64,000 nucleotides of DNA from Selenomonas bovis DSM 23594 (lineage in GTDB: Bacteria; Bacillota; Negativicutes; Selenomonadales; Selenomonadaceae), in the NCBI RefSeq assembly GCF_000381005.1, contig NZ_KB908379.1:62001-126000 (forward strand), read 5' to 3'. The stretch's first letter is position 1. Each line of letters begins with the position of its first letter. The position numbers and the translations under genes are program-made. Below are positions 1,876-20,717 of the stretch, in pieces. A model generated the notes under the pieces. It was given only the letters and a program-made list of their open reading frames with translations, made no database searches and was not told the DNA's origin.

Positions 1876-1881
1876 AAAAAT

Positions 1882-3038: not shown

Positions 3039-3067
3039 AACGAATCCCTCCTAAGAAAAATGACATA

Positions 3068-4839: not shown

Positions 4840-5793
4840 TTATAGCCTTTCCTTAATTTTTCTCTGCTCACGGCTCGCCTCATACACCATAACCTCATCC
4901 TGCAAATGATCAAATCTCATTCCATACGCCTGATACATGGATTTTGCTGTATGATTATCATCCCGCACCCAAAGCAGGAAACGCTTTGCATTGCGATTTT
5001 CTTCTATATAAGCGCGATAGAGCGCACTTCCTATCCCTTGATTTTTCCATTGTGTCCGACACACCCAATAGCGCAAGCAACAAGTCACTCCATGACGTTC
5101 AAAGAATAGAAACGCAGCTGGCGTTGAAATTTCATTAGGCCGATGTACTAATATCTGCCTTTTTTGTATAGCAGATGACAGTTCATAGTCTGTAGGAATT
5201 TGTTCGCACAGGGGATCCATATTTTCGTAAAGAATATCCAATAATGCACGAACATCTTCCTGACGTGCAAAATCAATCGATATCGATTGTCTAAAGGAAT
5301 GCAGGGAACTCGTCTTCCCCACCATCCGAGTCAATGTCCTATACGAGAGAAACCGACATTGCATCAACATTTCCCGCATCGAGCGCATCTCACCCACCAA
5401 GTCAACGACAATCTTTCGCCGAAAAAATTTCTGCAAAGCGAGTAAATCATCCATGAACTGCCTAGATTTCACAGCGACGAAGTATAGGTGTAAAAAATCG
5501 TTCCTCTCGCGTACGATAAAAAAGCAGTCTGAAAACAATACACCAGTTACTTCATTATGATCGATCCAAGCCCCCGCCTGTTCCCCAGAAATGAAATAAT
5601 TCGTTTCCCACTCATCCGCCGTATCGCGGATCAAAAATATGCCAGCCTGAAGCTCTTCCAGACGCTTCATCTGCCAACAGATTCCCATTCCCTCAGGCGG
5701 CAGACGAGTCGGCTTCCATCCTGTTCCGCAAGAACGTAAGACATCTGCCCCCCCCGGATGCACATTCTTCAAGGGCATAATTTTCGATTTCAT
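4840..5793 (-). CDS. GNAT-type N-acyltransferase 1, paired with formyltransferase 1
   Basis: 317 residues. The C-terminal third (about 195-305) is a GNAT fold: the acetyl-CoA motif A region reads QWKNQGIGSALYRAYIEE, followed by FLLWVRDDNHTAKSMYQ. The N-terminal half is a region shared only with GNAT 2 in this cluster (for example FLIRDTADEWETNYF), perhaps a substrate-binding domain. It should transfer an acyl group to an amine. The gene overlaps the formyltransferase 1 gene by 101 bp, and the G8 tract at 5748-5755 encodes Gly14-Gly15 here. In the present length it is in frame from its own ATG, which has a weak AGAGG upstream. DNA is visibly more AT-rich than the middle of the cluster. Confidence 0.8.
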   Translation of the reverse strand: MKSKIMPLKNVHPGGADVLRSCGTGWKPTRLPPEGMGICWQMKRLEELQAGIFLIRDTADEWETNYFISGEQAGAWIDHNEVTGVLFSDCFFIVRERNDFLHLYFVAVKSRQFMDDLLALQKFFRRKIVVDLVGEMRSMREMLMQCRFLSYRTLTRMVGKTSSLHSFRQSISIDFARQEDVRALLDILYENMDPLCEQIPTDYELSSAIQKRQILVHRPNEISTPAAFLFFERHGVTCCLRYWVCRTQWKNQGIGSALYRAYIEENRNAKRFLLWVRDDNHTAKSMYQAYGMRFDHLQDEVMVYEASREQRKIKERL

Positions 5794-6514
5794 AAATCCT
5801 ATCCTCTAATCGAATCCGCGGTACAGGCATAATGGGTAAGCCGCGATAGTCCATGGCGCGCAAAAACGCATATCCTTTTGCAAGGCTCCAGTTCGTATCA
5901 TAAAAGCCCTCATTCGGGATATCCGATGACAAGAACAGCTTGCCGGAACTCATAGGAACATGAGGCATACGTTCCTTCTGCAAGAACGATCCTATATGTT
6001 GTCGCAGGAGGCTGACTCCGCATGCAGCGCTTTTCATCAAAAGAGAAAGTGCCGTATCATCTGGCTGAATAGGGACTTTTTCTTGCACTATGATCATGCC
6101 AGTATCCACAGTGGGGGCTACGAAATGCCAAGTTGCTCCGCCAAACTTTTCTTGGTAAAAAATCTCCCATGTAGGAGCGTTGCGCCCACGATAGTTCGGC
6201 AAATAAGCGTTATGAAAATTGATGATCGTAAAATTTTCTTTTTCTACAATTTCTTTCGGGAAAATATAGGAATTATGCGCACTCAACAACAAGATCTTTG
6301 CTTCTTGCTGTGATAAAAACAGACGCAATTCCTTCGGGGGCATCCTCAAATAGGGAATCCCCATCTGTCGGCATTGATTCTCTACGGTAGGAATCGCGTA
6401 CTGCTCTACTGAAAGGCAAGTAATGGGTACTGAAACGCAAGCTTCCGCAAGAATCTGCAAGCACGCTCCCCCCACACGCCCAGTTCCCATGAAATAAATT
6501 TGATTGTATGTCAT
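5693..6514 (-). CDS. Formyltransferase-family protein 1
   Basis: 273 residues related to methionyl-tRNA and sugar formyltransferases, which use N10-formyl-tetrahydrofolate. The Rossmann start is YFMGTGRVGGACLQIL; the catalytic triad is Asn99 and His101 in INFHNAYLPNYRGRNAP and Asp137 in VDTGMI. The C-terminal tRNA-binding domain is reduced to a short tail, as in sugar N-formyltransferases and the formylation domain of linear gramicidin synthetase. The likely substrate is a sugar amine or a carrier-bound amino acid. The ATG has GGAGG 7 nt upstream. The tail after residue 250 reads through the G8 tract and ends in SSAA, so its C-terminus depends on tract length. It forms an overlapping pair with GNAT 1 and is separated from the rest of the cluster by repeat copy A. 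Confidence 0.85.
   Translation of the reverse strand: MTYNQIYFMGTGRVGGACLQILAEACVSVPITCLSVEQYAIPTVENQCRQMGIPYLRMPPKELRLFLSQQEAKILLLSAHNSYIFPKEIVEKENFTIINFHNAYLPNYRGRNAPTWEIFYQEKFGGATWHFVAPTVDTGMIIVQEKVPIQPDDTALSLLMKSAACGVSLLRQHIGSFLQKERMPHVPMSSGKLFLSSDIPNEGFYDTNWSLAKGYAFLRAMDYRGLPIMPVPRIRLEDRIYEIENYALEECASGGGRCLTFLRNRMEADSSAA
5748..5755 (-). repeat. G8 tract in the formyltransferase 1 / GNAT 1 overlap
   Basis: Eight C on the given strand (eight G on the coding strand). Formyltransferase frame reads TCC GGG GGG GGC; GNAT frame reads CCG GGG GGG GCA. With G7 or G10 the two genes become one open frame of 557 codons' worth of protein at G7; with G9 the GNAT is frameshifted from its own start. 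Confidence 0.9.
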
Positions 6515-6582
6515 TCATCTACCTCCGTAGAATTCATGCACCATTCTTTTTTGCTATTCCTATCTTATTTTAATTTTAAATT

Positions 6583-7366: not shown

Positions 7367-7417
7367 GACATTCTCTCTTTCTCCACAGCGATTCCTAGAG
7401 CACGTACAGCGACAAGT

Positions 7418-8173
7418 TCACGCCAAATACCCACCATCGACGGGGATCTGCGCTCCTGTCATCCACGACGCGCGATCACTCAGCAGGAAAAGAACGACAC
7501 CCGCCACATCCTGCGCACGTCCTGCGCCCAAAAGTTCCCGGTCAAGGATGGGCTGCAAATGACCATCAGGAAGCATTTCTCCCCCTTCGCGCGTCATCTC
7601 CGTATCAACCCAGCCGGGCTGAATCGTATTCACACGCTGCTTCCTACGTGCAAGTTCCTTCGCAAAGGAATGCGAAGCCGCATCGACCGCCGCTTTGGCC
7701 GCACTATAGGCGAAGCCTCCCTTAAGTCCCTCTACAGCTGCCACCGAGGAAAACAGAACGAAACTCGCCGCAGTATGAGAGATGCTTGCCCTCGCGCACG
7801 TATGCATGAAATTCACAGCACCCCAAAAGCTCGTATTGACGATATCATGTGCCTTCGCTTCATCATAAAAACGAAGCGTCATGAGTCCGCCAATCCCTGC
7901 AGCATGGACGCCGCCATCGATTTTCCCATGCGCTTTGACAAAGGCCTTCACTGCCGCTTCCATCTCTTTCGGCTCGCGCACATCGCAAGCAGCGGGATAG
8001 ATTCCCTCCGCGGACTCCTCTGCAAGTGCTGAAAGGTTCTCCCTACGCCGCGCAAGAGCCAGGACGCTGGCACCCGACTCGACGAGTTCCAGCGCGACCT
8101 GCTTGCCCATACCAGACGAAGCTCCGGTCACCACGAAATTCTTCCCATGAAAATCAAATGCTACATTGCTCAT
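7418..8173 (-). CDS. Short-chain dehydrogenase/reductase (FabG-like)
   Basis: 251 residues of the classical SDR family. Coenzyme motif TGASSGMGKQVA near residue 17; ACDVREP supplies the adenine contact; HAAGIGG stands for NNAG; catalytic Ser in FSSVAAVEG and Tyr-x3-Lys in YSAAKAAVD; C-terminal IPVDGGYLA typical of 3-oxoacyl-ACP reductases. In this context it probably reduces a 3-keto group on an ACP-bound intermediate made by the KAS III encoded 23 bp upstream. Confidence 0.88.
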   Translation of the reverse strand: MSNVAFDFHGKNFVVTGASSGMGKQVALELVESGASVLALARRRENLSALAEESAEGIYPAACDVREPKEMEAAVKAFVKAHGKIDGGVHAAGIGGLMTLRFYDEAKAHDIVNTSFWGAVNFMHTCARASISHTAASFVLFSSVAAVEGLKGGFAYSAAKAAVDAASHSFAKELARRKQRVNTIQPGWVDTEMTREGGEMLPDGHLQPILDRELLGAGRAQDVAGVVLFLLSDRASWMTGAQIPVDGGYLA

Positions 8174-8196
8174 CCAATATTCCCCCGACCATCATG

Positions 8197-9240
8197 TCAC
8201 GAGTGAAAATGCTGTGTCGGCAGACAATTCGTATCCTTGAGATTGATGATCGTCGATGCGATCGACAAGCCGATGCCAAAGCCAGAAAGCAGGGAAAGAT
8301 GGTTTTCACGCCGCTTCCATTCCTCCCCCATCTCCGTGAGCAGCAAGGGGATGGTCGCCGAACTCGTGTTGCCGATCTGCGCCGAATTTGATATGACCTT
8401 CTCTGGCGTCGCCGCAATCTGCTCACTCATCGAACGGATGAGGATGCGATTCGGCTGATGGAAGAGATACGCGCCGAGGTCTTCATCACAGACACCTGCG
8501 GCATTCATCAACTCGCGCAAATTCACCGGCACATCCTGCATCGTAAAATCAAGGACACCCATACCGTCCATATTGGAGTAATTCCCTGCATCCTCCGTAT
8601 CAAGGTGACTGTCCTTGTACGACAGGGGATGACGTGCACCGCCGTTGGGGCGGATCAATGCCCGATAGCGCTCCCCGTAGCTCGTGATATTGAAGATCGT
8701 CTCCGTGCCTTCGTCCCCCCCAATCAACGTACATGTCCCTGCATCTCCTGTGATGGCGCGCACACCAGGCTCATGCGGAGAAATCAACGGAGTAGCGACA
8801 TCGCCACAGCAGAGGAGCACCTTTTTGCTGTTGAGGGTTGGCAAAATCGAGGCGGCGAGATAGAGCCCATATACGAATCCCGAGCAGCCTAGATTGATAT
8901 CAAACGCCACGAGATCCTTGGCTAAGCCCAAACGATCCTGCATCGCGTATGCCGTTGACGGCGCGGTGTAATCCGGTGTCTGCGTCACGAACAGCAAAGC
9001 TCCTACCGATGCCCGCTCAACCCCCTGGGCGAAAATCTGCTCCGCCGCCTGCACACAATAATCCGATGTGCATTCCCCAGACGAGGCGATACTGAGCGCA
9101 CGAAAGCCCGTCCCCTTCTGTAGCCGCTGCAGTTTTTTCTCTGTCAGCACATCCTTCAGGTAATCACACACAGGCAATACTTGATGCGAGATGACGCCCG
9201 CGACATACTCTAAACGAATCCCCGATGTCTTTGCAATCAT
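8197..9240 (-). CDS. 3-oxoacyl-ACP synthase III-like enzyme (KAS III) A
   Basis: 347 residues of the FabH-like thiolase fold. The Cys-His-Asn triad is complete: Cys119 in DINLGCSGFVYGL, His261 in YLFHQPNRI, Asn291 in QIGNTSSATIP. Such enzymes condense an acyl-CoA or acyl-ACP starter with malonyl-ACP, or transfer acyl groups. The gene overlaps the upstream ACP gene by 4 bp, so the ACP is its probable partner. A G7 tract (8715-8721) encodes Gly174-Gly175 in frame; losing or gaining one G would truncate the enzyme before the His and Asn. It is only distantly similar to KAS III B of the same cluster, so the two likely have different starters. Confidence 0.88.
   Translation of the reverse strand: MIAKTSGIRLEYVAGVISHQVLPVCDYLKDVLTEKKLQRLQKGTGFRALSIASSGECTSDYCVQAAEQIFAQGVERASVGALLFVTQTPDYTAPSTAYAMQDRLGLAKDLVAFDINLGCSGFVYGLYLAASILPTLNSKKVLLCCGDVATPLISPHEPGVRAITGDAGTCTLIGGDEGTETIFNITSYGERYRALIRPNGGARHPLSYKDSHLDTEDAGNYSNMDGMGVLDFTMQDVPVNLRELMNAAGVCDEDLGAYLFHQPNRILIRSMSEQIAATPEKVISNSAQIGNTSSATIPLLLTEMGEEWKRRENHLSLLSGFGIGLSIASTIINLKDTNCLPTQHFHS
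8715..8721 (-). repeat. G7 tract inside KAS III A, in frame
   Basis: Seven C on the given strand, read as ATT GGG GGG GAC in the gene. The same length as the tract that splits the reductase at 13.1 kb, so it could also slip, but nothing shows that it does. Confidence 0.8.
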
Positions 9241-9473
9241 TCCTCACTGCCTCCCGCAAGGACAAAAAGATCGCGCATCGTCTTCGCAGCCTTCACCTGT
9301 GCCGGCAGGATGCGCTTCCCCGACGCCTTATTCGCCATTGCAAGAAACGCCACATAACTGAGAGAATCCCACTCCTCGATCTCGTCAAGCGACTGCTCTA
9401 GACTAAGTACCCCCTCATTTTCATCTAAATCTAATACATAGGCCATTTCTTCCATGAATTGCTCTTTCGTCAT
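9237..9473 (-). CDS. Acyl carrier protein A
   Basis: About 78 residues, a four-helix carrier protein. The phosphopantetheine site is the Ser in EEWDSLSYVAF. I chose the ATG at 9473 (MTKEQF) over the one at 9485 because an AAAGGA lies at a good distance upstream of it. Stop and KAS III A start overlap (ATGA), implying coupled expression. Close in motif to carrier protein B, 25 bp upstream, so the two may hold successive intermediates. Confidence 0.82.
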   Translation of the reverse strand: MTKEQFMEEMAYVLDLDENEGVLSLEQSLDEIEEWDSLSYVAFLAMANKASGKRILPAQVKAAKTMRDLFVLAGGSEE

Positions 9474-9498
9474 TTGCAATACCATCCTTTCTCGTCAC

Positions 9499-9714
9499 TC
9501 ACTGCAACAGTTGATAGAGGTCCGCCACGGTTTTCGCCGCTGCGATATCCGTAGCAGCCAGCTTTCCCTTCGCCTTCTCCATCATCTTGGACTGGAACAT
9601 CAGCTTGGATAGGGAATCCCACTCCTCCAGGCTCTCCAACTGCGTCTCCATCGTTAAATTCTCCTCCGTATCGAGGAGATCCGTCAAAATATCGAGAAAT
9701 TCCTGTTCCGTCAT
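9499..9714 (-). CDS. Acyl carrier protein B
   Basis: About 71 residues starting MTEQEF, preceded by AGGAAGAG at a normal distance. The attachment Ser lies in LEEWDSLSKLMF. It shares the E-E-W-D-S-L-S pattern with carrier A but not with carriers C and D. A start further upstream (9753) would overlap the FkbM gene and lacks a ribosome site. It should carry a thioester intermediate after activation by a phosphopantetheinyl transferase, which is not in the window. Confidence 0.8.
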   Translation of the reverse strand: MTEQEFLDILTDLLDTEENLTMETQLESLEEWDSLSKLMFQSKMMEKAKGKLAATDIAAAKTVADLYQLLQ

Positions 9715-9736
9715 CGTGTACTCTTCCTTTCCTGAT

Positions 9737-10859
9737 TCAATCCACATAAGCATAAACGACAGTTTCCGTAAAATTCGTTGAGTGGTGATAAATCCTGAGA
9801 TGATATTCGGGGACGAGCGACTTGATATACAGCGGCAGCTCGAAGTAATCCGTCAGCTTGTGATAAAGCGAGATGGCGAGGTTCGGACGATCGCGGCGGA
9901 TAATCTCCTGCGCGCCCTGCAAAAGCGCCAATTCCGATCCCTCCACATCCGCCTTGATCATATCGATTCTAGGCTCCCTATCGCGGAAATACTCATCGAG
10001 CGAAACGACATGTACGCGATCGATGATTGACGCCTCGTCGGCCTCTGCCTCCGGCACGAGTTTCGTACCGATGGCAAGGTCGCTCATCACGCCTTTGACA
10101 AGCGCCATATCCTGCGTAGCCTCGCCAACACCAGCCGGCACGATGGAAATCTGATTGTCATCGAGCGCCCATTCCTCCACGAGTCTCGCTTTCCGATGCT
10201 CCAGAGCTGTCCTCTGCTTCATCCCAGGCTCAAATCCGTATATACGACGGAAAATCCCTTGACTGTGCCAGATATATTTCTCGATCGTATCACCGACGAA
10301 GGCTCCACAATCCACGAAAACACTGTCCGGCGTAAAGCGATTCATCTCCGGCGGAGTGAAATACTGATCCGGCTGAAACACAGAGAAGACTTCCGCATCG
10401 TCAGCGAGCTTGAAACGCACGTTCAAGACGCGCGTAAAGGTTTCGCGGGAGACCTCGTCCTCCAACAAATCATAGACCTGCCGCAATGCCGGCTGCATAA
10501 ACTTGAAATACGCGCGGTATCGTGAAAACAACTGATAGGACTGACCGTTAAATGCCGTTTGGAAGGGCTTCTCATATCTGTCCTTCAGCAAGAAGACGAT
10601 GCCATCCCCTTGCTCACACAATGCTGTGCGTAAAGAGAGAACGTCTGCCCCCCCCCGAAAGCACAAACCGCGAGCATCTCGTCATGCCATGCTGTGCAAA
10701 GAAGCCCTCCGCTTTCGGGAAATCCTTTGCCTCCCCGACGAGCAGAAGGGGCGTATCCCTTGTGACACGCCGCGCACCGGGACGCAAATCAATTTCCTTG
10801 CCACGATAGGCCATGCCATAGACATCCTCATCAAAGATCGACGAATGCATAGATATCAT
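9737..10859 (-). CDS. FkbM-family methyltransferase, split by a G9 tract (OFF)
   Basis: Read as one gene this would give 373 residues at G8. Codons 1-70 (from the ATG at 10859) form a Rossmann-like N-terminal region (FDEDVYGMAYRGKEID, then TPLLLVGEAKDFPKAEGFF), and the downstream frame (9737 to about 10650) is the FkbM SAM-dependent methyltransferase: DSVFVDCGAFVGDTIEKY binds SAM, IDMIKADVEGSELALLQGA is the FkbM signature. With the nine G of this assembly the first part stops after 81 codons and the second lacks an ATG (only a TTG before the tract), so the enzyme should be OFF. FkbM enzymes O-methylate sugars or secondary metabolites. Confidence 0.85.
10648..10656 (-). repeat. G9 tract splitting the FkbM gene
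   Basis: Nine C on the given strand. Upstream frame: CTT TCG GGG GGG GGC AGA; downstream frame: CGG GGG GGG GCA GAC. Loss of one G (G8) or gain of two (G11) joins the two parts into one frame. Confidence 0.92.
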
Positions 10860-10867
10860 CTCCTTAT

Positions 10868-11716
10868 CTATAAGGCGACCATCTCGCCAGTGACTTCAAA
10901 TCGGTCATCGAGCGGTCGCGGGTAATCATGCGCGAGCATATAGAGCGGGTCCAGCCTAATCTTCTCGACGAGCAGCGCATAGCTCGCCTTTTCCTCTACG
11001 ACATAGAGGAAACTATCGCCGCAGGACACCTTCTTTGCCGCGCCTGTATGGAGCAGCGCCTGCTCGAAATCATCCCGATCCGTCGGCTCTACACCCGCAT
11101 AGCGGACGTAGAGCTCGTACGTCTCCTCTCGCGTCGTGCCGTCCGCTGCCGTAACCTTGCCCGTAAACGCGCGGTTATAGCGATAGGGGACATGAAGCGC
11201 ATACTCGATGTAGTGCGTATACGTAAAGCACATCGCGGGACGAACGCCAAGGAAGAGGAACTTGACGCGCGCCTCCTGATGGAGGAGGTCGAACGTGCAT
11301 CCCTTGCCGATGGACTCATGTCCAACTTCTGTCGCCAAATACCTTTTCTCCCCCATCGCCGCGACGGACATCATCGGGTCAAGGGAGCGGACGGCCTCCG
11401 GTTGGCGGCGGAAATACTCGTTGAACGCGCCCATCTTCGTCTTGCTCTTCTGTACATCGTAATCTCTGCCATTGGGAAAACTGAAGGTGAACGTCGGCAC
11501 GATGAGCGTCCCAACGCCAAGCGAGCGCACGGCATCGAGGACGCCCGCCATGATGCCGCGCCTGCCGAGACTGAGATTCGGCTGACCAAACGTCAGATCC
11601 GAATGGATGAATAGAACGTCCGCATCCGCCGCCCCACACGCCTCGAGCGCCGCACGCAGTGTCGATCGCGTCACCAGCTGTCCGCTTGCATCCTGAAACA
11701 AAACCTGTTCTGCCAT
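10868..11716 (-). CDS. AAC(3)-family N-acyltransferase
   Basis: 282 residues of the aminoglycoside 3-N-acetyltransferase fold (Antibiotic_NAT). Visible family features are FIHSDLTFGQPN, TLIVPTFTFSFPNGRDYD and LDPMMSVAAMGEKR, with the later VGHESIGKGCTFDLL. Outside resistance islands this family acylates amino groups of sugars in polysaccharide and glycoprotein clusters, so here it is a good candidate to move an ACP- or CoA-bound acyl chain to an amine. It lies 8 bp upstream of the FkbM start and 11 bp downstream of an SDR gene. I see no reason to call it a drug-resistance gene. Confidence 0.85.
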   Translation of the reverse strand: MAEQVLFQDASGQLVTRSTLRAALEACGAADADVLFIHSDLTFGQPNLSLGRRGIMAGVLDAVRSLGVGTLIVPTFTFSFPNGRDYDVQKSKTKMGAFNEYFRRQPEAVRSLDPMMSVAAMGEKRYLATEVGHESIGKGCTFDLLHQEARVKFLFLGVRPAMCFTYTHYIEYALHVPYRYNRAFTGKVTAADGTTREETYELYVRYAGVEPTDRDDFEQALLHTGAAKKVSCGDSFLYVVEEKASYALLVEKIRLDPLYMLAHDYPRPLDDRFEVTGEMVAL

Positions 11717-11727
11717 GGAATCTCCTC

Positions 11728-12480
11728 CTAATGTGCCATCCTACCGCCATCAACCGTGAAACACTGTCCCGTGATCCAGCGCGCCTCCTCCGAGAGCAGG
11801 AACGCCACCATCGATGCGATGTCTTCCGGCATGCCAAGACCGAGCGTATATCCCTCTGCCACATCTTTCGTCAAGAGATCCGCCCGCGCGGTCAGCTCAT
11901 CCGCCATGCGGGACGGAACGGCGCCCGGGCGGATGGCGTTCACCCGCACCCGCGGTCCGAGCTCTTCTGCCATCGCCCGCAGGAAGCCCTCAAGCGCCGC
12001 CTTCGAGGCACAGTAGAACCCCTGCCCTTTCGCACCGATCTGACTCTGCACACTCGATATCAGGACGACGCGTGTCAACTCTTTCCGGTTGACGTGCCGA
12101 CTGATGAGCGTCTCGAGCAACGCTGCCGCGGAGAAAAAATTGACCTCCATAATGCGGTGTGCCGTTTCCGCGTCCGCGAGCCGCAGCGGCAGGAGCGGTG
12201 CCATACCAGCACAGTGGACGAATGCCTGCACAGAAAGCTGCCGCGCCTGGAGGAACTCCTGGAGCGCCTCCCCCGCCGCCCAGGCATTGTCGAGTTCCCG
12301 CGGCCAGAGCACATCCTCCGCACGTTCTCCGCAAAGCGTCCATGTCTCGCGCAGACGCGCCTCGTCCCTGCCGCTGAGGATTAAGGTGATTTCCCTCTCC
12401 TTCGCAAGACGGACAGCAGTCGCCCTGCCGATACCAGAGGAAGCGCCCGTGACGAGCACCCTTGTTTGAGAAAATTCCAT
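11728..12480 (-). CDS. Short-chain dehydrogenase/reductase (FabG-like)
   Basis: 250 residues, classical SDR: RVLVTGASSGIGRAT near residue 8; HCAGMAPLLPL; catalytic Ser in VLISSVQSQIG and YCASKAALEG for Tyr and Lys; end ITGQCFTVDGGRMAH. It is a close paralogue of the phase-variable reductase upstream (12509-13263); both end in the same ITGQCFTVDGG segment, so they look like a tandem duplication. Probable role: ketoreduction of an ACP-bound intermediate. GAGGGA precedes the ATG. Confidence 0.88.
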   Translation of the reverse strand: MEFSQTRVLVTGASSGIGRATAVRLAKEREITLILSGRDEARLRETWTLCGERAEDVLWPRELDNAWAAGEALQEFLQARQLSVQAFVHCAGMAPLLPLRLADAETAHRIMEVNFFSAAALLETLISRHVNRKELTRVVLISSVQSQIGAKGQGFYCASKAALEGFLRAMAEELGPRVRVNAIRPGAVPSRMADELTARADLLTKDVAEGYTLGLGMPEDIASMVAFLLSEEARWITGQCFTVDGGRMAH

Positions 12481-12508
12481 ATATCCCTCTTTCCGAGAAA
12501 AGGGACTC

Positions 12509-13263
12509 CTAGTGTGCCGTCACACCCCCATCCACCGTAAAGCACTGCCCTGTGATGAAACGGGCCTCCTCCGATAATAGATAGCGGATGAGCGCCGTCA
12601 CATCCGAAAGCCGCGCACAGCCCAGCAGGCTGCCGTGTGCCTCAGGATGCTCACGGAAATCCTGCGCAATCTCCGGCGAGACACCGGCCTTCTCCAAGAT
12701 CTCTGTGGGCAGTGCCCCAGGACGGACGGTATTGATGCGCACATGCGGCGCCATCTCTACCGCGAGCGCCCGCGCCGCCGCGTCGAGCGCCCCCTTCGAG
12801 GCGCAATACGCGCTCATGCCGCTCGTACCGCGGACACTCGCGATGCTCGAGATCAGCACCACACTTTTGAGTGCACTATGATTGACGCGCCTCGCCGTCA
12901 GCACGCGCAGGATTTCCAGACAGGAACACACATTGACTGCAAGCACGTCTCGGATCGCCGCGGCATCCATAAGCCGCAGCGGCGAGATGGGCGACACGCC
13001 GGCACAGTGAACGAATCCCTTCACTCTGATTTCATTCTCTTCGAGATAGGTACGCAATGATGTCGCTATTTCCGACACGTTGCGCAGGTCAAAGGCATAA
13101 GTTTTTGTTATACCCCCCCGAATTCCGATAAATCAAGAAAATGATTGAACGTTCGCCCGCAGGCGATCACCGACTCCCCCTGTCCGCAGAGTTCTCGAAC
13201 GAGCTCCAAGCCTAAACCGGAAGTTGCGCCTGTCACTAAGGTGAATTCATTTTTCGTCTCCAT
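12509..13263 (-). CDS. Short-chain reductase, split by a G7 tract (OFF)
   Basis: The gene starts at ATG 13263, two bases after the stop of KAS III B, and runs NEFTLVTGATSGLGLELV as a normal SDR coenzyme site. At G7 (13113-13119) the frame ends at GGG GGG GTA TAA after about 52 codons. With one more G it continues as GGG ATA ACA AAA ACT TAT and joins the rest of the enzyme (VKGFVHCAG, VVLISSIASVRG, YCASKGALD, ITGQCFTVDGGVTAH), giving 251 residues, exactly the length of its paralogues. So all catalytic residues exist, but the gene is OFF in this assembly. The downstream part alone (from a GTG at 13078) would lack the nucleotide-binding motif. Confidence 0.9.
13113..13119 (-). repeat. G7 tract splitting the reductase gene
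   Basis: Seven C on the given strand. G7 leads to a TAA three bases after the tract; G8 (or G5, G11) restores a 251-residue SDR. Confidence 0.92.
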
Positions 13264-13265
13264 AC

Positions 13266-14330
13266 TCAAAACTCCACCATCTCACAGAAATCCAGCTGCC
13301 CCAGCTCGAGCACCATCGCCCCCCAGGTGAGGCCGACGCCGAAGCCGGCGAGGCAGACTTTATAGGTGTGGCCCAGCAGCTTCTCCCCGACGTTGTAGCA
13401 GATATTCGTCGGGATGGTGACGCCGCTCGCGTTGCCGAAATACGTGACGATATTGCTTGGCATTTTCTCGAGCGGCACGTCGATAGCCTGCGCTAGCTTT
13501 TCCACCATGAACTTATTCGGCTGGTGGAAGAGGAACCAATCGATCTCCTCCTTCTTTACACCGAGCCGCGCGAAGAGCGATGCGAGGAGCGGCGGCATCT
13601 CCGTCTGCACGAAGTTGAAGACATCGGCGCCCTTCATCACGAGGTTATCGAGGCTGCGGCGGTTCCCCTCGCTGTCCTCGTGAAGCACAGCGGTCTCCGG
13701 CGTCGAGGGCTGTCGGAAGCCTCCCGCCGGGATCATCAGCGCATCGTGGCGGCTGCCATCCATGCGGATCTCGCCGTCGATGCGCGTCTCCTCCTCCGTC
13801 CGCTCGACGACCGTCACCGAGGCGGCATCGCCGATGAGCGGATAGCTGTTGCGGTCCTCCTTTGAGACTTTGTGGCTCAGGACATCTACGTTGATGAGGA
13901 GGACTTTCCGCGTCTGCGGCTGGTCGAGCAGGGAGAACGCCTCCATGAGCCCCGTAAGATAGCCGGTGCAGCCCTGGCTGATATCCACGCAGTAGACGTG
14001 CGAATCGAGCCCGAGCCGCCCGTGGATCACGGCGCCCGTCGTCGGCATGAAATAGTCCGGCGACTGCGTGACCGTGACGATGGCATCGATCTCCTCCTTA
14101 CGGAGCTTCCCCTCGTGCAGAAGTGTCTCCACGCCGAAAACGGCGAGGTCCGACGCGCAGACCCCAGGCTCCACGAAATGATGCCTATCATAGCCCATCA
14201 CGAGCTTGAGCCGCCGCGAGCGCTTCTTGTCCGCCTGGTAGTTTTTCATCTCCTCATCGAACGTCTTGCAGTTCTTCGGGATGACCGTCAGGACACCGGT
14301 GATTCTCTTGTTCCGATATGCTAGCTGCAT
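13266..14330 (-). CDS. 3-oxoacyl-ACP synthase III-like enzyme (KAS III) B
   Basis: 354 residues with the complete KAS III triad: Cys121 in VDISQGCTGYLTGL, His269 in WFLFHQPNKFM, Asn300 in YFGNASGVTIPTN. The start codon overlaps the stop of carrier protein C by one base (TAATG), so C is its likely partner. It differs from KAS III A over most of its length, including a longer N-terminal segment (about 45 residues before MGYDRHHF). In flagellin and O-antigen islands similar FabH homologues make short 3-hydroxyacyl groups that end up on amino sugars. Confidence 0.88.
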   Translation of the reverse strand: MQLAYRNKRITGVLTVIPKNCKTFDEEMKNYQADKKRSRRLKLVMGYDRHHFVEPGVCASDLAVFGVETLLHEGKLRKEEIDAIVTVTQSPDYFMPTTGAVIHGRLGLDSHVYCVDISQGCTGYLTGLMEAFSLLDQPQTRKVLLINVDVLSHKVSKEDRNSYPLIGDAASVTVVERTEEETRIDGEIRMDGSRHDALMIPAGGFRQPSTPETAVLHEDSEGNRRSLDNLVMKGADVFNFVQTEMPPLLASLFARLGVKKEEIDWFLFHQPNKFMVEKLAQAIDVPLEKMPSNIVTYFGNASGVTIPTNICYNVGEKLLGHTYKVCLAGFGVGLTWGAMVLELGQLDFCEMVEF

Positions 14331-14560
14331 TACTTCGCACCACTCTTTTTGAGAAGCTCTGCCATCGCCGCTACCGAAGAAAAGTTCTCCGGCACAATAT
14401 CGATTCCCTTGATCTTCACCTCATACTCCTTCTCAAGCATCGCCACAAGCTGGACGATGTCAAAGGAATCGAGATACCCTTCCTCGATGAAATCCACATC
14501 CTCGGTGAAATCGAACTCTGGGCGCAAGTCCGCCAAGATTTCTCGTATCTTTTGCTCCAT
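14330..14560 (-). CDS. Acyl carrier protein C
   Basis: 76 residues; attachment Ser32 in EEGYLDSFDIVQLV. The GYLDSFD form is typical of carrier proteins that work with stand-alone ligases of the D-alanyl or acyl type. The gene lies between the ligase (19 bp upstream) and KAS III B (1-bp overlap), so it probably receives the starter unit from the ligase and hands it to the condensing enzyme. Confidence 0.88.
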   Translation of the reverse strand: MEQKIREILADLRPEFDFTEDVDFIEEGYLDSFDIVQLVAMLEKEYEVKIKGIDIVPENFSSVAAMAELLKKSGAK

Positions 14561-14579
14561 AAAAACTCCTCCTTATCGT

Positions 14580-15926
14580 TTAGCGCTTCTTCTTGAATCG
14601 CTTGGTATACTCCACCTGCTCCATGAGGACCACCCGCACCGGAATCTTATAGGATGCCAGCCGCGTCTTGCAGAACTTGCGCACTTCTTTCTTGATCTCT
14701 AGCGGTGTCATCGCGGCATCCCGATGCTTGATCTTGCAGGCGACCGCCTGCCCTGTGATGGGATTGGACTCTCCGTAGACGGTAACGTCCTCCACCCCTG
14801 GCATCTGGAGCAGTACTGCCTCCACTTCCTCCGGCATCACCTTTTCGCCGCCGACATTGATCATATCGGAGTTGCGCCCGACGATGCGCAGGAAACCATC
14901 TTTCTCCTCGACGAAGTCCCCTGTACGGAACCAGCCGTCTTCTGTAAAGCGCTCTGCTTTGGCATTGAGATAGCCCATCACTTGCGTTTTTGTCCGCAGC
15001 CACAATTCCCCATCGACGACTCTATACTCCGTATCGGGATCATCGAATTTCAGGAAGGTACTCGTAGAGGACTTGCTCACCGTGGAAATGATGCCCGTCT
15101 CGCTCGTCCCGAAGGTCTGCAGGAAGCGCACATGAGGGAACGCTGCTTTCAGCTTCATCAGCAGCGAGGACGGCATGGGCTCTGTCCCGTAGGTGATCAT
15201 GCGCAGGCTGGAAAGGTCGTATTTCTCGGCTGCGCCACTGAGTAGCAGCAGATTCAGGAACGTCGGTGAGGACGGCAGGACCGCCACGTGGTAGCGCTCC
15301 ACCAGCGAGGCGATATACTCCGGTTCCCTTCGCTCCGGCAGAACCATCGTGATATGCATGGTGAGCGAATTCAGCAGCGTATTGATGCCGCCGATATGAT
15401 CGAACATCAGAAAAATCAGGAACGTCATATTACGCTTGCGCTCGCGTTTTCCCTCATAATGTGCGATCAGCTGCGTCAGATCGTGTACCATTGCTTTCGG
15501 TTTTCCTGTCGAGCCGCTGCTGAAAAGGACCAGTCCAGCGTGCCCCCGCTCCTGCAATTTCTGCAGGAGCACCGGGGAATCATGCCGTTCAGTCTCCGAC
15601 AGGAGACGCAGCGTTCCTCCTGGCTCCTGGATCAATCGATACGCACAGGGGACCTCGGAGAGGCGGCTCTCGATCTCTTCTGGAATGGTCGTTGCGATGG
15701 GGATGATCACATTCTTATTTTCCATCATGGCCAGGAACAAGGAGATCGCCGAAAAGGAATAGTCCATGCAGAGAGCGACGACAGCGCCCTCCGGGACTCT
15801 TCCCGACAGCCAATGATACTGCTTCTCGATTTCCTGATAGAGATCCTGATAGGTATACGTCGCGCCACGATTGACCACGGCTATGCGCTGCTGAGCGCCC
15901 TGGAACTTCTCAATGAACGGATGCAA
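14580..15926 (-). CDS. AMP-forming acyl/aryl-acid ligase (ANL superfamily)
   Basis: 448 residues. Core motifs: P-loop-like VLFSSGSTGKPKAM, FGTSETGIIS (A5), FRTGDFVEEKDGFLRIVGR (A7-A8), and the hinge/C-domain NVGGEKVMPEEVEAVL. The extreme C-terminus VEYTKRFKKKR takes the place of the usual GKxxR loop and still offers a Lys for adenylation. The enzyme is short for the family, with little before the first core motif. It should activate a carboxylic acid as AMP ester and load it on carrier protein C. The substrate pocket does not look like an amino-acid one (no clear Asp235-type motif), so a fatty or hydroxy acid is more likely; that is inference. It directly abuts the SDR gene upstream. Confidence 0.85.
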   Translation of the reverse strand: MHPFIEKFQGAQQRIAVVNRGATYTYQDLYQEIEKQYHWLSGRVPEGAVVALCMDYSFSAISLFLAMMENKNVIIPIATTIPEEIESRLSEVPCAYRLIQEPGGTLRLLSETERHDSPVLLQKLQERGHAGLVLFSSGSTGKPKAMVHDLTQLIAHYEGKRERKRNMTFLIFLMFDHIGGINTLLNSLTMHITMVLPERREPEYIASLVERYHVAVLPSSPTFLNLLLLSGAAEKYDLSSLRMITYGTEPMPSSLLMKLKAAFPHVRFLQTFGTSETGIISTVSKSSTSTFLKFDDPDTEYRVVDGELWLRTKTQVMGYLNAKAERFTEDGWFRTGDFVEEKDGFLRIVGRNSDMINVGGEKVMPEEVEAVLLQMPGVEDVTVYGESNPITGQAVACKIKHRDAAMTPLEIKKEVRKFCKTRLASYKIPVRVVLMEQVEYTKRFKKKR

Positions 15927-15927
15927 T

Positions 15928-16626
15928 TCAATTCACCCCGCCTAGATAAAGTACTTGTCCCGTAATGAAATCGCTTTCCGGCCTCAGATAGAAGTCGATT
16001 GCATTTTTCACATCCTGGAACGTCCCCAGCCGCTTGATGCACTGCTGGTTCATCAGATTGGCAATTTTCTCCTTCGGCACATTCTTGATCAAATCCGTAT
16101 CGATTGGCGTCGGTCCAATCGCATTGACCGTAATACCGAACGTGCCGATTTCCTTCGCCAGGACATGCGTCAGCTGTTCCACAGCCGCCTTGGAAGCCGA
16201 ATAGATGAGTTCCCCCTCCAACTGCAGGGCGACGGCGACGGTCGAATAATTCACGATGCACCCTTTCCGCGCTTTGATCATGTACTTGCTGACTTCCCGC
16301 GAGAAAAGAAACGTGCCAGCGAAATTCGTCTCCATGACGCGCTTGGCTGTCGCATACGGGGTCAAGACGAAGGCATTCATGGACGCTGCTCCCGCATTGT
16401 TGATCAAGGCGTCGATTCTGTGCTCTTTTTTATAGACATCCCGTACGAATGTTGTTACCGCCTTTTCATCAGCAACATTGAGGCATGTATGGTGGTAATG
16501 CGGATGCTCCAAATCTGAAGCACGCCGAGAGCAGCCGTAAACAACATCGCCTGCCGCGAGGTACGATTCCGCCAAAAAGCGGCCGATTCCCTTGCGCGTG
16601 CCCGTGATGATCATGACACGGCTCAT
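15928..16626 (-). CDS. Short-chain dehydrogenase/reductase (FabG-like)
   Basis: 232 residues. RVMIITGTRKGIGRFLAE gives the coenzyme site, INNAGAASMN the NNAG motif, NYSTVAVAL the Ser region and YSASKAAVEQL the Tyr-Lys pair; it ends FITGQVLYLGGVN. It overlaps carrier protein D by 4 bp and abuts the ligase gene by 1 bp, so it belongs to the same translationally coupled set. Likely a ketoreductase or dehydrogenase on a carrier-bound intermediate. The family resemblance to the other three cluster SDRs is only moderate. Confidence 0.87.
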   Translation of the reverse strand: MSRVMIITGTRKGIGRFLAESYLAAGDVVYGCSRRASDLEHPHYHHTCLNVADEKAVTTFVRDVYKKEHRIDALINNAGAASMNAFVLTPYATAKRVMETNFAGTFLFSREVSKYMIKARKGCIVNYSTVAVALQLEGELIYSASKAAVEQLTHVLAKEIGTFGITVNAIGPTPIDTDLIKNVPKEKIANLMNQQCIKRLGTFQDVKNAIDFYLRPESDFITGQVLYLGGVN

Positions 16627-16916
16627 GCTTTTCCATCCTCCAGTTCACGCTCGATGAAACTGCACAGGGAACCGATGGTACGAAACGGGCTGATACGCGC
16701 GGACATCGCTGTCTCAGACGTCAGGGAGATATCTACTCCCTCTTCCAAGAGCGCGCTCTCGATATCGACAACCGTGCTCACGAGACCCACCGAATCCATG
16801 ATGGAGCTTGCTCCGATGAGGTGCGTATTCTGCGTTACCTCCGCCTTGATATCATTTTCCTCACAGTAGTCGCGGACAACCTGCTCCACGATCTGGTCAA
16901 TCTTTTCTCTCGTCAT
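16623..16916 (-). CDS. Acyl carrier protein D
   Basis: 97 residues from MTREKIDQIV. Attachment Ser42 in SSIMDSVGLVSTVVDIE. It is longer than typical ACPs, with an insert around ISLTSETAMSARIS. The frame is open further upstream to 16982, but the ATG at 16916 follows the end of GNAT 2 with a 20-bp overlap and gives a standard N-terminal helix. It sits between GNAT 2 and the SDR, suggesting GNAT 2 may take its acyl donor from this carrier. Confidence 0.82.
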   Translation of the reverse strand: MTREKIDQIVEQVVRDYCEENDIKAEVTQNTHLIGASSIMDSVGLVSTVVDIESALLEEGVDISLTSETAMSARISPFRTIGSLCSFIERELEDGKA

Positions 16917-17859
16917 CTTCTGCCATTCCCTTCTTCGTGAAAACCATATCTTCCAGCCCATCAAAACGAAAGCCATTGGCAAGATGCATCTTGATCACAG
17001 GCGCATTTTCTTCCTTTACGAATAGCGTCACGACGCGCAGCCCTTTCATCAGCCGCAGGGCGTCCCAGTAGACGGCAACACCCGGGAAATCGCCATGACC
17101 GCGATACGCCGGGTCCGCGAGCCAATACCTGGCTTCCCCCCGTTTCCCATGTCGTGCGAGCCAAAAGACAGCGACGACACGACCGTCACGACGCGCCGCG
17201 AATATCTCACGCCGCTGGATAGCTGCCCTGATCTCTTCGCACGATGGCACGTTCTCCGTCATGACATCGAAATTCCGCTGCAAGAGGCGCGTGATTTCAT
17301 CTGTCTCCGACGGTCGGGCAAACTTATCTGCAGGAACGGCTAAGTCCTGGAGACGCTTCTGTATGCGCGTCATACGCCGCAAGCGGAACTGCTGCTGAAA
17401 GCCGCAATGCGTGAATCCATCTACGAGCTGCACGCGCCCACCTTCGTCTTTATCAGCGATCAGGTCCACCACAAGCGGCAGCGTACTGCATGGAAGGGCG
17501 CTTCGCAAAAGCTCCGTTAGAGCGCCAGCGCATGTGCTCCCATAGTAAAGGCGCTCATAGGATGTCCTCGTTTCGATCAAGAGGAAGGCGGTACAGGAAA
17601 GGACTGCCCGCACCTTCCCCGCATGGAGTTTCTTCTCCAACTCCTCCGGGGAAAGGAAGTAATCCGTCCGCCAATCTTTCGCTTGACTTCGCAGGAAGGT
17701 AAAAGCAGAGAGAACCTCTCGCGAGTCCTTCACCTCCCAGGCGGCGGCAGTTTCCTCAGGCGGCAGAGGAGAGCTGATCTGCCATCCGCGCTCGGGACGG
17801 TATGATACAGATGCCCCCCCCGATTGGACATCCGCCAATCTGATAATCTTCAATCTCAT
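16897..17859 (-). CDS. GNAT-type N-acyltransferase 2, paired with formyltransferase 2
   Basis: 320 residues from the ATG at 17859, which has a strong GAGAGGAGG just upstream. Same architecture as GNAT 1: a cluster-specific N-terminal half (FLRSQAKDWRTDYF) and a C-terminal GNAT domain (LADPAYRGHGDFPGVAVYW, VTLFVKEENAPVIKMH). The substitution GHGDFPG for the usual Q/RGxGxG/A pyrophosphate loop is conservative. The N-terminus overlaps the formyltransferase 2 gene by 104 bp and includes the G8 tract, again encoding GGA at about residue 15. An open frame extends upstream to 18057, but that part is out of keeping with the family and runs inside the formyltransferase. Confidence 0.8.
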   Translation of the reverse strand: MRLKIIRLADVQSGGASVSYRPERGWQISSPLPPEETAAAWEVKDSREVLSAFTFLRSQAKDWRTDYFLSPEELEKKLHAGKVRAVLSCTAFLLIETRTSYERLYYGSTCAGALTELLRSALPCSTLPLVVDLIADKDEGGRVQLVDGFTHCGFQQQFRLRRMTRIQKRLQDLAVPADKFARPSETDEITRLLQRNFDVMTENVPSCEEIRAAIQRREIFAARRDGRVVAVFWLARHGKRGEARYWLADPAYRGHGDFPGVAVYWDALRLMKGLRVVTLFVKEENAPVIKMHLANGFRFDGLEDMVFTKKGMAEDDERKD

Positions 17860-18573
17860 AAACCTCCTCTCCCAGGCGCAGTTTCGGCGGCGGCAGGATA
17901 GGGAGGCCCCCGTAGTCCAGCGCACGCAGGAAGGCGTAGGCCTTCGCCATCGACCATGTCGGGTCGAGCCAGCCGTCGTTGGGGACCTCGCGGGATAGGT
18001 AGAGGCGCCCCGGCGCCGTGATGCGCCTGCGCGAGTACATTCCCGCGAGGATCTCATCGATGTGCTGCCGGAACAGTCGGACGCTCGTGCGCGCCGTCGC
18101 CATCAAGAGCTCCAGCGCCGTCATGTCCGAGGTGATCGGCACTCGCTTCTGAAAGGCGATGGCGCCCGTATCCACGTCCGCTGCGATGATGTGCCAGGTC
18201 GCACCGCCATATGTCTCGCCGCGATAAATCTCCCACGTCGGCGCGTTGCGCCCGTGGTAGTCGGGCAGATAGGCATTGTGGAAATTGAGCAGCGTGAGAG
18301 GTGGGTGCGCCACGACCTCCCGCGGGAAGAGGTAGCTGTTGTGTGCACTCACGAGGAGCGCAGGCTGCGTTCGCGCGCAGAGGAAGTGCGGCAACGCCTC
18401 CGGCGTCAAGGGATGGAAGGGCACGCCGAGGCGCGCCGCCGTCTGCCGCATCGTCGGGACGTGCTCCTTTTCCACCGCGAGGCACACGAGCCGCTCGCCA
18501 CACGCCTGCGCCAGGATGCGCAAACAGTCCGCGCCGACGCGGCCTGTCCCCAGAAGTACACCTGCTCGTAACT
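17756..18573 (-). CDS. Formyltransferase-family protein 2, damaged N-terminus
   Basis: Paralogue of formyltransferase 1: GTGRVGADCLRILAQA, then the catalytic NFHNAYLPDYHGRNAPTWE and VDTGAIAFQ, ending YEIEDYQIGG and SSAA. The active-site Asn, His and Asp are kept. The beginning is not normal. Codons for YEQVYFW (matching YNQIYFM of paralogue 1) lie in another frame and join GTGRVG only if the four G at 18548-18551 were five; where paralogue 1 starts, AGT replaces ATG. No ATG, GTG or TTG stands in the current frame before the dinucleotide motif. Either the gene is inactivated, or the assembly has an error here, or this short G run is also variable. Confidence 0.75.
17814..17821 (-). repeat. G8 tract in the formyltransferase 2 / GNAT 2 overlap
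   Basis: Eight C on the given strand. Formyltransferase frame ATC GGG GGG GGC, GNAT frame TCG GGG GGG GCA: the same relation of frames as in pair 1 at 5748-5755. G7 would fuse the two genes. Confidence 0.92.
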
Positions 18574-18584
18574 GTCTTCTCCCT

Positions 18585-19013
18585 TTACTTCGATGCGCTG
18601 CCGAACCGTTCCGCCAACTGGTGCCGGTCGATCTTGCCATTGGGATTTCGCGGCATGGCGAGCACCTGCTGGAACTCCGTCGGCAGCATGTATTTCGGCA
18701 GGACCTTCGCGAGGTCTGCCCGCAGCACGCGGGCAGGGAGTTTCTGCGCGCTTTCATAGATCAGGACAATCTTCTTCTCCTGCTTGCGGTAGAGCACGCA
18801 GGCGTTCCTTATCGCCGGCTCACGGAGCGCCGCCGCTTCGATCTCACCGAGCTCGATGCGGTAGCCCATGTGCTTGACCTGAAAGTCCCGCCGCCCGAGG
18901 AAGAGGATTTCCCCGTCCTCGCGCTCCTTGCCAAGAAAACGGCAGAGATTGTATATGAGGTTCGTGATCCCTATGTGGAACTCCATCCGCTTCCTTCCCT
19001 TCACATACGGCAA
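18585..19013 (-). pseudogene. Remnant of an adenylation enzyme (AMP-binding C-terminal domain)
   Basis: 142 codons that cover only the end of a DltA/NRPS-like adenylation protein: EDGEILFLGRRDFQVKHMGYRIELGEIE (A8 region) through NPNGKIDRHQL with the A10 Lys. The large N-terminal AMP-binding domain is missing, and the first 35 codons no longer match the family. It is similar to the C-terminal domain of the intact adenylation gene directly upstream, so it looks like what is left of a tandem duplicate. A small domain could still be made from the TTG at 19013, but nothing suggests a use for it. Confidence 0.65.
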
Positions 19014-19071
19014 TCTGCAAGGTCATCACCGCATCACAGGCAGTAAGAATTACCGGACAAGGCGTGGTAGG

Positions 19072-20595
19072 CTATTGATTTTTCTGTCTCTTATCTTGCG
19101 CGTAAGACCGCATGAGCTCCTTCCGATCGAATTTCCCATTCGCGGTCAAGGGCAGACGATCAAGCTGCCGCGTGATCTTGGGCAACATGTAGTCTGGCAA
19201 CAGGTCACGTAGCGCGCGATAGACTGCAGCAGGCTCTGCCGCTCCCGCATAGCAGAGAACAATCTCCGATGCTTCCGCGTCGTAAAGGCAGACCGCCTGG
19301 TGAATGTCCGGCAGTGCCGCAGCAGCCGTCTCGATTTCACCCAGTTCGATCCGATGTCCCATATACTTGATCTGAAAATCTTTGCGGCCGTCGTACATCA
19401 GTTCCCCGTGCATATTATAGTGCACGATATCGCCTGTGCGGTAGATGATCTCCCTCTCCTTCCGCAAGGGATTCTGCACAAACACGGCCTTCGTCTTCTC
19501 CGGGTTTTTATAGTAACCGAGTGCCAACGATGCACCGCGGACGCAAAGCTCGCCCTTGAACTCCGGCTGCATGATACGCCGATCCTCTTCATCGAGGACG
19601 AAGACCGTCTCCGGACGGCATTCCCTGCCAATAGGCAACGGCTCATCATCGCGGAATGGTCGGTTCACGATGTAATATGTACAATCGACGGTGACCTCTG
19701 TCGGACCGTAGAGATTGGCAAAGACCGCCTTCGGCAGACGCTTCCGCCAGATATTCAGCTGCTTGTTCGGCATAACTTCCCCGGCAAACAGCACCTTTTT
19801 CAGGCAGGAAATATCGCAGTCATTGAGGATGCCAAAATTGGCGACACTGCACAAAACGGACGGCACCCAGAAGACGAGACTGATATGATGATCCCGCACA
19901 TACTCAAGCAAGCGAATTGGGAAGATGAACGCCTTGCGCGGGATGATGCAAAGCGTCGCGCCGTTCCTGACCGTCTGATAGATATCGAGCACGGAGTTAT
20001 CGAAAAAGAATGGTGCCTGATTGCCGATGATGTCCTTTTCCGTGACAGCAAATGTCTCGCGAACCCATTCCGTATAGTCCATGACCGACCGCTGCCGGAT
20101 CGTCACGCCTTTTGGTGTGCCCGTAGAACCGGAGGTAAAGAGCACATAAAGGATATCCTGTTCGGAAACCTTCTCACGAACGCTCGCGAGCAGTGTCTCT
20201 TCTATCTCCTGTCGAAGGAGATCCTCATAGAAAAGCACAGGGATTTCCCCAGGATCCATCAATCTCCCCCGGTGTGCCTGATCTGTGATGATGGCAGCCG
20301 GGGAGAGCGTCTCAAGAATTTTCGCCTGACGCACCTTCGGCATCTTCGCATCGAGAACCGTATAGAAAGCCCCGGCATACGCGACTCCCAAAAAGGAAAT
20401 GACTGCCGCACGCGTCTGCCCGAGAAAGACAACTACAGGCGCATGGAATATATTCCGCCTTGCCAAGGCGGTCGCTATGGCGCGCGCCTGCCGACGAAAT
20501 TCCGCAAATGTCGTCGTTCCCTCTTGATCGATAAGTGCCGTCTTCTCTGAGAATCTCCGCGCCGTCTCATCGAGAGCATCTGTCGTCAGTTTCAT
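19072..20595 (-). CDS. Stand-alone amino-acid adenylation enzyme (DltA/NRPS A-domain type)
   Basis: 507 residues, the full length of a DltA-like enzyme. Motifs A3 LFTSGSTGTPKGVTI, A5 NLYGPTEVTVDC, A7 YRTGDIVHY, A8 DFQIKYMGHRIELGEIE and A10 LTANGKFDRKEL with the catalytic Lys are all present. It should activate an amino acid (or a small acid) as AMP ester and load it on one of the cluster carrier proteins; no carrier or condensation domain is attached. DltB and DltD are absent, so it is not a teichoic-acid alanylation operon. It is the first gene of the cluster, about 100 nt downstream of the promoter with the poly-G spacer. GGAAGAGG precedes the ATG. Confidence 0.9.
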   Translation of the reverse strand: MKLTTDALDETARRFSEKTALIDQEGTTTFAEFRRQARAIATALARRNIFHAPVVVFLGQTRAAVISFLGVAYAGAFYTVLDAKMPKVRQAKILETLSPAAIITDQAHRGRLMDPGEIPVLFYEDLLRQEIEETLLASVREKVSEQDILYVLFTSGSTGTPKGVTIRQRSVMDYTEWVRETFAVTEKDIIGNQAPFFFDNSVLDIYQTVRNGATLCIIPRKAFIFPIRLLEYVRDHHISLVFWVPSVLCSVANFGILNDCDISCLKKVLFAGEVMPNKQLNIWRKRLPKAVFANLYGPTEVTVDCTYYIVNRPFRDDEPLPIGRECRPETVFVLDEEDRRIMQPEFKGELCVRGASLALGYYKNPEKTKAVFVQNPLRKEREIIYRTGDIVHYNMHGELMYDGRKDFQIKYMGHRIELGEIETAAAALPDIHQAVCLYDAEASEIVLCYAGAAEPAAVYRALRDLLPDYMLPKITRQLDRLPLTANGKFDRKELMRSYAQDKRQKNQ

Positions 20596-20689
20596 CTACC
20601 TCTTCCTTTCGTACGGATAAATCGCACTTCATGACAAGTATATGTCACGCAAATATGATCTAACATTCATCTTCTCCGCACTAGCTTTT

Positions 20690-20717
20690 ATTATACTATG
20701 AATGTCCCCCCCCACAA
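20690..20717 (-). promoter_or_regulatory. Cluster promoter with a G8 tract in its spacer
   Basis: On the minus strand a perfect -10 TATAAT (20690-20695) follows a -35-like TTGTGG (20712-20717) with a 16-bp spacer. The G8 tract spans 20706-20713, so its length sets the spacer: 16 bp at G8, 17 bp (optimal) at G9, 15 bp at G7. Start of transcription should be near 20683, about 90 nt before the adenylation gene. The -35 match is weak (TTG only), as in other spacer-tract promoters. Confidence 0.72.
20706..20713 (-). repeat. G8 tract in the cluster promoter
   Basis: Eight C on the given strand between a -35-like element and TATAAT; non-coding. See the promoter entry for its effect on spacing. Confidence 0.9.

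Follow-up and report, generated by a model that had tools for sequence, protein, structure and literature searches.

Does a run of eight Gs, placed where a formyltransferase gene overlaps the acetyltransferase gene behind it, decide between separate production of these enzymes and their synthesis in a single chain? The question is raised by a 64,000-nt stretch of the Selenomonas bovis DSM 23594 genome (the window, meaning the whole of the DNA that was analysed), in which a sugar N-formyltransferase-like gene (FT2) and a GNAT acetyltransferase-like gene (GNAT2) read the same G8 tract in different frames. An earlier note on this DNA had described a switch choosing between separate enzymes, a fused enzyme and the loss of one. 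A second copy of the pair keeps G8 and a relative carries the fused form, so that the tract seems to be a genetic dice-roll that is maintained and not a run of Gs that arose by chance. Judged jointly in all its parts, we consider the following explanation fairly probable: the tract is a 3'-end contingency site that would switch the FT C-terminus between a native, an aberrant and a GNAT-fused form, and FT is a sugar N-formyltransferase-like protein putatively coupled in translation to the downstream GNAT.

Reading frames of the FT2/GNAT2 pair

The features of this pair, called pair 2, are the following.

17814..17821 (-): G8 homopolymer close to the 3' end of FT2, read by FT2 and GNAT2 in different frames
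17756..18571 (-): FT2 as assembled (G8), with a sugar N-formyltransferase-like core (PF00551, 1.4e-16) and, from the frames, an aberrant tail, GICIIPSRARMADQLSSAA
17730..17813 (-): native FT2 C-terminal tail HLYHTVPSADGRSALLCRLRKLPPPGR, stop TGA (match to tract-free relatives AE3005 and G072, p<0.001; model of a tract-free homologue)
17857..17859 (-): upstream overlapping ATG, inside the FT codons Y-E-I and preceded by an SD-like sequence formed by the RLGEE codons; opens a 320-aa GNAT at G8
17731..17733 (-): GTG, probable native start of GNAT2, sharing bases with TGA, the stop of native FT2 (GTGA), at the position where free-standing homologues start
16897..17733 (-): GNAT2, acetyltransferase-like, native-length form of 278 aa (PF00583, 2.3e-4; homologues)

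Frames were recomputed in silico for tract lengths of 6 to 12 Gs. At G8, FT2 ended in ...GGGICIIPSRARMADQLSSAA* at 17756 and the 320-aa GNAT frame opened at ATG 17859, the overlap being 104 bp (17756-17859). At G7 or G10, a single frame of 619 or 620 residues ran from FT2 through to the end of GNAT2. At G9, FT2 ended in ...CRLRKLPPPGR and the frame from ATG 17859 stopped after 34 aa; the native tail was in frame with FT2 at G9, G6 and G12. The recomputation thus reproduced what the earlier note had read from the DNA: the tract, the overlap and its two reading frames, separate proteins at G8, one FT-GNAT polypeptide frame at G7 or G10, and loss of the ATG-17859 frame at G9. The tract lies inside FT, is long enough to slip and is placed so that a change in its length alters the frame, with three distinct outcomes; every post-tract frame leaves most of the FT protein intact, and one of them joins the next gene.

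The 5' end of FT2 is less regular. The earlier note had placed its start at 18573, but the nearest in-frame ATGs are 18640 and 18757, to which the open frame extends, and no ATG, GTG or TTG was found at the FT2 position homologous to the FT starts of relatives. FT2 has the Formyl_trans_N fold and the N-x-H...D motif, with the catalytic N-x-H and D conserved. The Acetyltransf_1 match of GNAT2 is weak, just over the Pfam cut-off. The acyl-CoA motif A (Q/R-x-x-G-x-G/A) reads NQGIG in the paralogue GNAT1, whereas the corresponding GNAT2 loop, RGHGDFPG, appears degenerate, which counts against the explanation given above. Just upstream of FT2 lies the C-terminal remnant of a second adenylation enzyme (18585-19013, minus strand), where relatives have a full ligase. 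Because FT2 lacks a canonical start and this ligase is truncated, pair 2 is perhaps partly decayed; that it may be decaying also counts against that explanation.

The native formyltransferase tail and the acetyltransferase start

The tail that FT acquires at G9 had been taken in the earlier note for a new one. We rejected this idea, as the G9 frame matches the tails of tract-free relatives. The comparisons involved pair 2, a second pair in the window (pair 1) and the junction copy of G127, a relative described below. The G9-frame tail matched that of Selenomonas sp. AE3005 in pair 1 (p=0.002) and those of AE3005 and G072 in pair 2 (p<0.001 for each); the native-frame tail of the G127 copy also matched AE3005 (p<0.001). 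Overall, this frame matches the tract-free relatives AE3005, G072 and G143. The GNAT and G8 frames gave no match to the tract-free tails, except for a marginal one between the GNAT frame of pair 1 and G143 (p=0.012). Furthermore, native-frame similarity among the three junction copies exceeded that forced by the GNAT frame (p 0.001-0.004). The reciprocal effect, GNAT-frame similarity beyond that forced by the native frame, was only partial (p=0.005 between pairs 1 and 2, 0.02 between pair 1 and G127, 0.47 between pair 2 and G127). The FT of G143, which has no tract, was modelled with a mean pLDDT of 90; its tail folds into two strands, residues 261-265 and 272-279, in a block with a pLDDT of 90-93. 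Both alignment and model indicate that the G9 tail is the native FT C-terminus and that the assembled G8 carries an aberrant one. As the native tail is conserved and modelled as two strands, the assembled G8 form would lack a folded, conserved element, and FT activity may be lost or changed in this state.

The GNAT start was also reconsidered. Free-standing GNAT homologues start a few residues before a conserved E-I/V/L...(A/S) helix (e.g. MRLIEDIQEIKDAI in G155 and MPVRGIDEIRRA in G110), and in the junction copies a start codon at the homologous position overlaps the native FT stop. The overlap reads ATGA in pair 1 (5670), GTGA in pair 2 (17733) and TAGTG in the G127 copy and in AE3005, so that a coupled-pair arrangement, in which the start overlaps or abuts the native-frame FT stop, is conserved in all four. 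In both window pairs, 22 nt separate the G8-frame stop of FT from the native GNAT start downstream. ATG 17859, which had been regarded as GNAT2's own start, is doubtful in this role: it adds 42 residues absent from free-standing homologues, and these are an overprinted stretch of FT sequence. The 'strong RBS' in front of it (GGGAGAGGAGG-TTT-ATG) does contain an SD-like sequence, but the same nucleotides encode the conserved RLGE(E)VYE of FT. The part of the G127 fusion that corresponds to the 42 extra residues, a linker at residues 247-279, was modelled with a pLDDT below 50; the FT half of this model was poor, due to a thin, mixed alignment, and nothing but the domain boundaries and the linker was taken from it.

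The native GNAT start therefore most likely lies downstream of the tract. Since this start overlaps the native FT stop in the junction copies, we infer that the ancestral state was a translationally coupled FT-GNAT pair. For the same reason, GNAT is probably made at G9, and loss of GNAT at this length was rejected as unlikely on start-codon homology. Of the choice proposed in the earlier note, the three-way frame selector stands, and its fused frame occurs in nature (see below), but the loss of one enzyme is improbable.

These findings suggest the following scheme. Slipped-strand mispairing, which presumably operates in this strain, would change the number of Gs (N). With N divisible by 3 (9), FT would have its native C-terminal beta hairpin and its stop codon would overlap the native GNAT start. 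With N equal to 8 (as assembled) or 11, the hairpin would be replaced by a short aberrant tail, and GNAT would be made from the upstream ATG as an N-extended form and/or from the native start 22 nt beyond the FT stop. With N equal to 7 or 10, a tail-less FT would be joined to GNAT in one chain by an unstructured linker of ~33 residues. GNAT would probably be made in every state, and the switch would act on the C-terminal form of FT and on its separation from, or fusion with, GNAT. For rapid slippage, a tract of 8 Gs is near the lower limit of length, which counts against the scheme.

The tract in a paralogous pair and in relatives

A search of the genome with GNAT2 revealed a second, diverged FT/GNAT pair in the window.

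5748..5755 (-): G8 of pair 1, placed as in the paralogous pair 2 (from sequence comparison)
5693..6514 (-): FT1 as assembled (G8, aberrant tail), 51% identical to FT2
5667..5747 (-): C-terminal tail of native FT1, QMSYVLAEQDGSRLVCRLREWESVGR, read in the G9 frame up to the stop TGA (from the AE3005 match)
4840..5793 (-): GNAT1, 317 aa from the upstream ATG, 27% identical to GNAT2 (E 6e-35)
5668-5670 (-): probable native GNAT1 start ATG, overlapping the native FT1 stop

In both pairs the tract lies 38 nt after the overlapping ATG and the three outcomes are identical. FT1 and GNAT1 are intact. The DNA flanking the tracts is 59-63% identical between the pairs, which rules out a recent gene conversion; together with the protein identities, it indicates an old duplication in which the tract was kept.

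When relatives of the window pairs were sought in genome contigs with GNAT2 patterns alone, none was found. Searches with an FT alignment across 189 genomes of the family and 380 of the class identified close FT homologues in only five other Selenomonadaceae. One of these, G127 (sheep-rumen MAG RGIG6591), belongs to another genus and has an FT with 53% identity. Its tract at this site is G10, which puts the pair in the fused state, with one open frame of 562 codons. The search suggested by the earlier note for fused formyltransferase-GNAT proteins was thus positive, and the length of the tract differs between genomes. The rule modulo 3 is the same in G127: G9 would give the native tail, and G8 or G11 a separate GNAT. 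The position of the junction tract is therefore conserved while its length varies (G8, G8 and G10, and G8 in G127 pair B), albeit in few copies. That the fused frame is known from one MAG only counts against a switch of the FT C-terminus that includes fusion.

Pair B, a second locus of G127, has kept the FT 3' end, G8 and GNAT, the FT body being replaced. In its place (L069, about 12250-12600) are ~250 bp of unrelated sequence with inverted-repeat-like stretches, between the first FT codons and the 3' end with its G8 tract. G143 and AE3005 (G166) have a stand-alone FT and lack the junction tract; the AE3005 GNAT is degenerate. The orthologous FTs of G093 and G072 contain runs of 10 and 11, respectively, inside the gene and out of frame; runs of 13 and 11 lie within or next to GNAT genes of these genomes. 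FT is hence a repeated target of such tracts.

Three further observations concern the gene family and the assemblies. In L099 (G110:C44, about 1471-3171), two GNAT-family domains share one 566-codon frame directly after a ligase and with no FT, which is another natural fusion. L074 (G003:C47), from the same genus, has a related island with a GNAT but no close FT homologue, and C8, C9 and C8 runs at 1516, 3030 and 5420. Long G/C runs (G9-G14) are found at or close to the ends of several contigs, namely L069 (G127:C528; 15243-15251) and C16, C38 and C43 of the genome studied here, so assemblies may break at variable tracts.

We considered the possibility that the products arise by ribosomal or transcriptional slippage on a fixed G8, which would yield several of them at once. 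Recoding by slippage on homopolymers is known in other genes (PMC3711429), and a frame overlap containing a homopolymer would suit it. Yet lengths of 8 and 10 in relatives, with different frames, look more like DNA slippage, and we hold this mechanism to be highly improbable.

Does selection act on the fused frame? All four tract-bearing copies keep the GNAT frame free of stops across the tail, and tract-less AE3005 has stops there. With random synonymous codons, the fused frame would be open with P about 0.01 in the G127 junction copy and about 0.65 in the window copies; the former value is suggestive of selection but not decisive, and the latter, which is unremarkable, counts against the explanation given at the outset. 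These data bear on plain on/off switching of FT, in which only G9 would work, G8 and G7 would both be 'off' and the fused frame would be a by-product of gene order. This is a serious possibility. It agrees with the conservation and predicted structure of the native tail, with the tracts in G093 and G072, which simply break the FT gene, and with the weakness of the GNAT-frame similarity left after native-frame forcing (above all between pair 2 and G127). It does not explain why three junction copies carry the tract right where the gene ends, why the GNAT frame is open in 4/4 tract-bearing copies with a low P in G127 and stops in AE3005, or why G127 occurs in the fused state. These points favor a switch between native, aberrant and fused C-termini. 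A stronger version, in which the tract is a maintained, true three-position selector and the fused bifunctional formyltransferase-acetyltransferase has a function of its own, drawn stochastically in each cell lineage, is rather doubtful. Its positions would be native FT with native GNAT, altered FT with N-extended GNAT, and the fusion, which might serve, for instance, for channelling or for an altered acyl/formyl choice on one sugar.

The island and comparison with known systems

G runs are not in excess in the window as a whole, and this idea was rejected: under a dinucleotide model, 6 runs of at least 7 Gs were seen against 5.1 expected, and 4 of at least 8 against 1.3. Their clustering was judged against the genome background instead. 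All six runs of at least 7 Gs are in a 15.9-kb island (4840-20713), on its coding strand, and none in the other 48 kb. The 2.69-Mb genome contains only 22 runs of at least 8 Gs; the island has 4, where the frequency in the rest of the genome predicts 0.11 (Poisson P about 5e-6; about 8e-4 once corrected for genome length). The strongest argument against chance is nevertheless a comparative one: both a diverged paralogue and a member of another genus carry the tract at the matching site.

The rarity of such runs, with all four of those in the window lying in the island, also argues against the view that the tract is a relic, inherited from an ancestor by decaying genes and no longer switching. 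The irregular start of FT2, the truncated ligase beside it, the degenerate AE3005 GNAT and the loss of most of FT from G127 pair B would fit a relic, but FT1 and GNAT1 are intact and the tail frame is still conserved; we regard a relic as unlikely.

The island encodes acyl- and sugar-modification functions: AMP ligases, a KAS III, SDRs, an AAC(3)-like protein, an FkbM methyltransferase and a PglD-like acyltransferase. Judging by this gene content, the island probably makes a surface sugar that is acylated or formylated, both this sugar and the carrier being putative. Flagellins are encoded in the genome, but on other contigs.

The island has other tracts. A G9 (10648-10656, minus strand) lies near the N-terminus of an FkbM methyltransferase-like gene, whose upstream and downstream stretches occupy different frames that G8 would unite; a G9 is also present at the corresponding place in G093. 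A G7 (13113-13119, minus strand) splits an SDR, the N-terminal Rossmann part (TLVTGATSGLG...) being in another frame than the rest; the two parts would join at G8, and the listed ORF (12509-13078) lacks its N-terminus. A G8 (20706-20713, minus strand) precedes the first gene of the island and is followed, 10 nt on, by a perfect TATAAT; if TTGTGG served as a weak -35, the spacer would measure 16 nt (17 at G9). It is a possible promoter-spacing switch for the whole operon, though a sigma-70 promoter around it scored below the threshold of our scan.

Both window copies of the FT/GNAT junction are in a non-native frame, as would be expected if the homopolymer length had been misread and the true genome had G9 at both sites. 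The runs at 13113 and 10648 are, however, out of frame in different ways, which is typical of mixed phase states, and independent assemblies show long homopolymers at the same sites. Such an assembly or sequencing error is very unlikely.

The closest folds to FT are those of WbkC and related sugar N-formyltransferases (TM 0.75/0.85 to WbkC). FT shares the fold and the N-x-H...D motif with WbkC (5VYR), WlaRD (4LXQ), QdtF and FdtF, but only 16-23% identity, and the sequence match to WbkC stops before the C-terminal tail. In the PhasomeIt report (PMC6321876), Campylobacter fetus CFT03427_1556 is a phase-variable formyltransferase-domain gene, likewise with a poly-G, of G9-10 in most genomes examined. 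In Campylobacter Cj0031/Cj0032 (PMC4335053) and Helicobacter pylori HP1353-1354/JHP1272 (PMC3936762), homopolymer length also decides between one and two reading frames, and a second tract in JHP1272 changes enzyme specificity (PMC3936762); there, both frames are parts of one tract-split enzyme, whereas here they belong to two separate enzymes. No earlier report of homopolymer phase variation in Selenomonadaceae was found in the openly accessible literature, and the present data suggest that this family possesses a contingency island with poly-G tracts, of the kind known from Campylobacter and Helicobacter.

The nearest precedent is Helicobacter canadensis, for which C-terminal phase variation and switching between separate and fused products were proposed (Snyder et al. 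2010, PMC2823697). As here, a poly-G at the 3' end of a gene would alter the C-terminus or merge the gene with the next one. The 3'-tract genes of that genome include a formyltransferase, HCAN_0643 (G11, reads G8-14), and an acyl-ACP reductase beside glycosylation genes; HCAN_0660/0661 are among the examples of C-terminal phase variation, and one pair of hypothetical genes can merge (PMC2823697). In H. canadensis, length variation is documented by read data, but the merged genes are hypothetical and relatives were not compared. The 2010 proposal thus concerned one genome and two hypothetical genes made apart or as one (PMC2823697). In the present case the two partners can be recognised as enzymes and the native tail has been pinpointed, a fused state is found in nature, and the design is kept in two paralogues and a second genus. 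This makes two questions testable: whether homopolymer length can dictate the separation or fusion of enzymes, and whether the fusion, for which a role may be suspected, has any effect.
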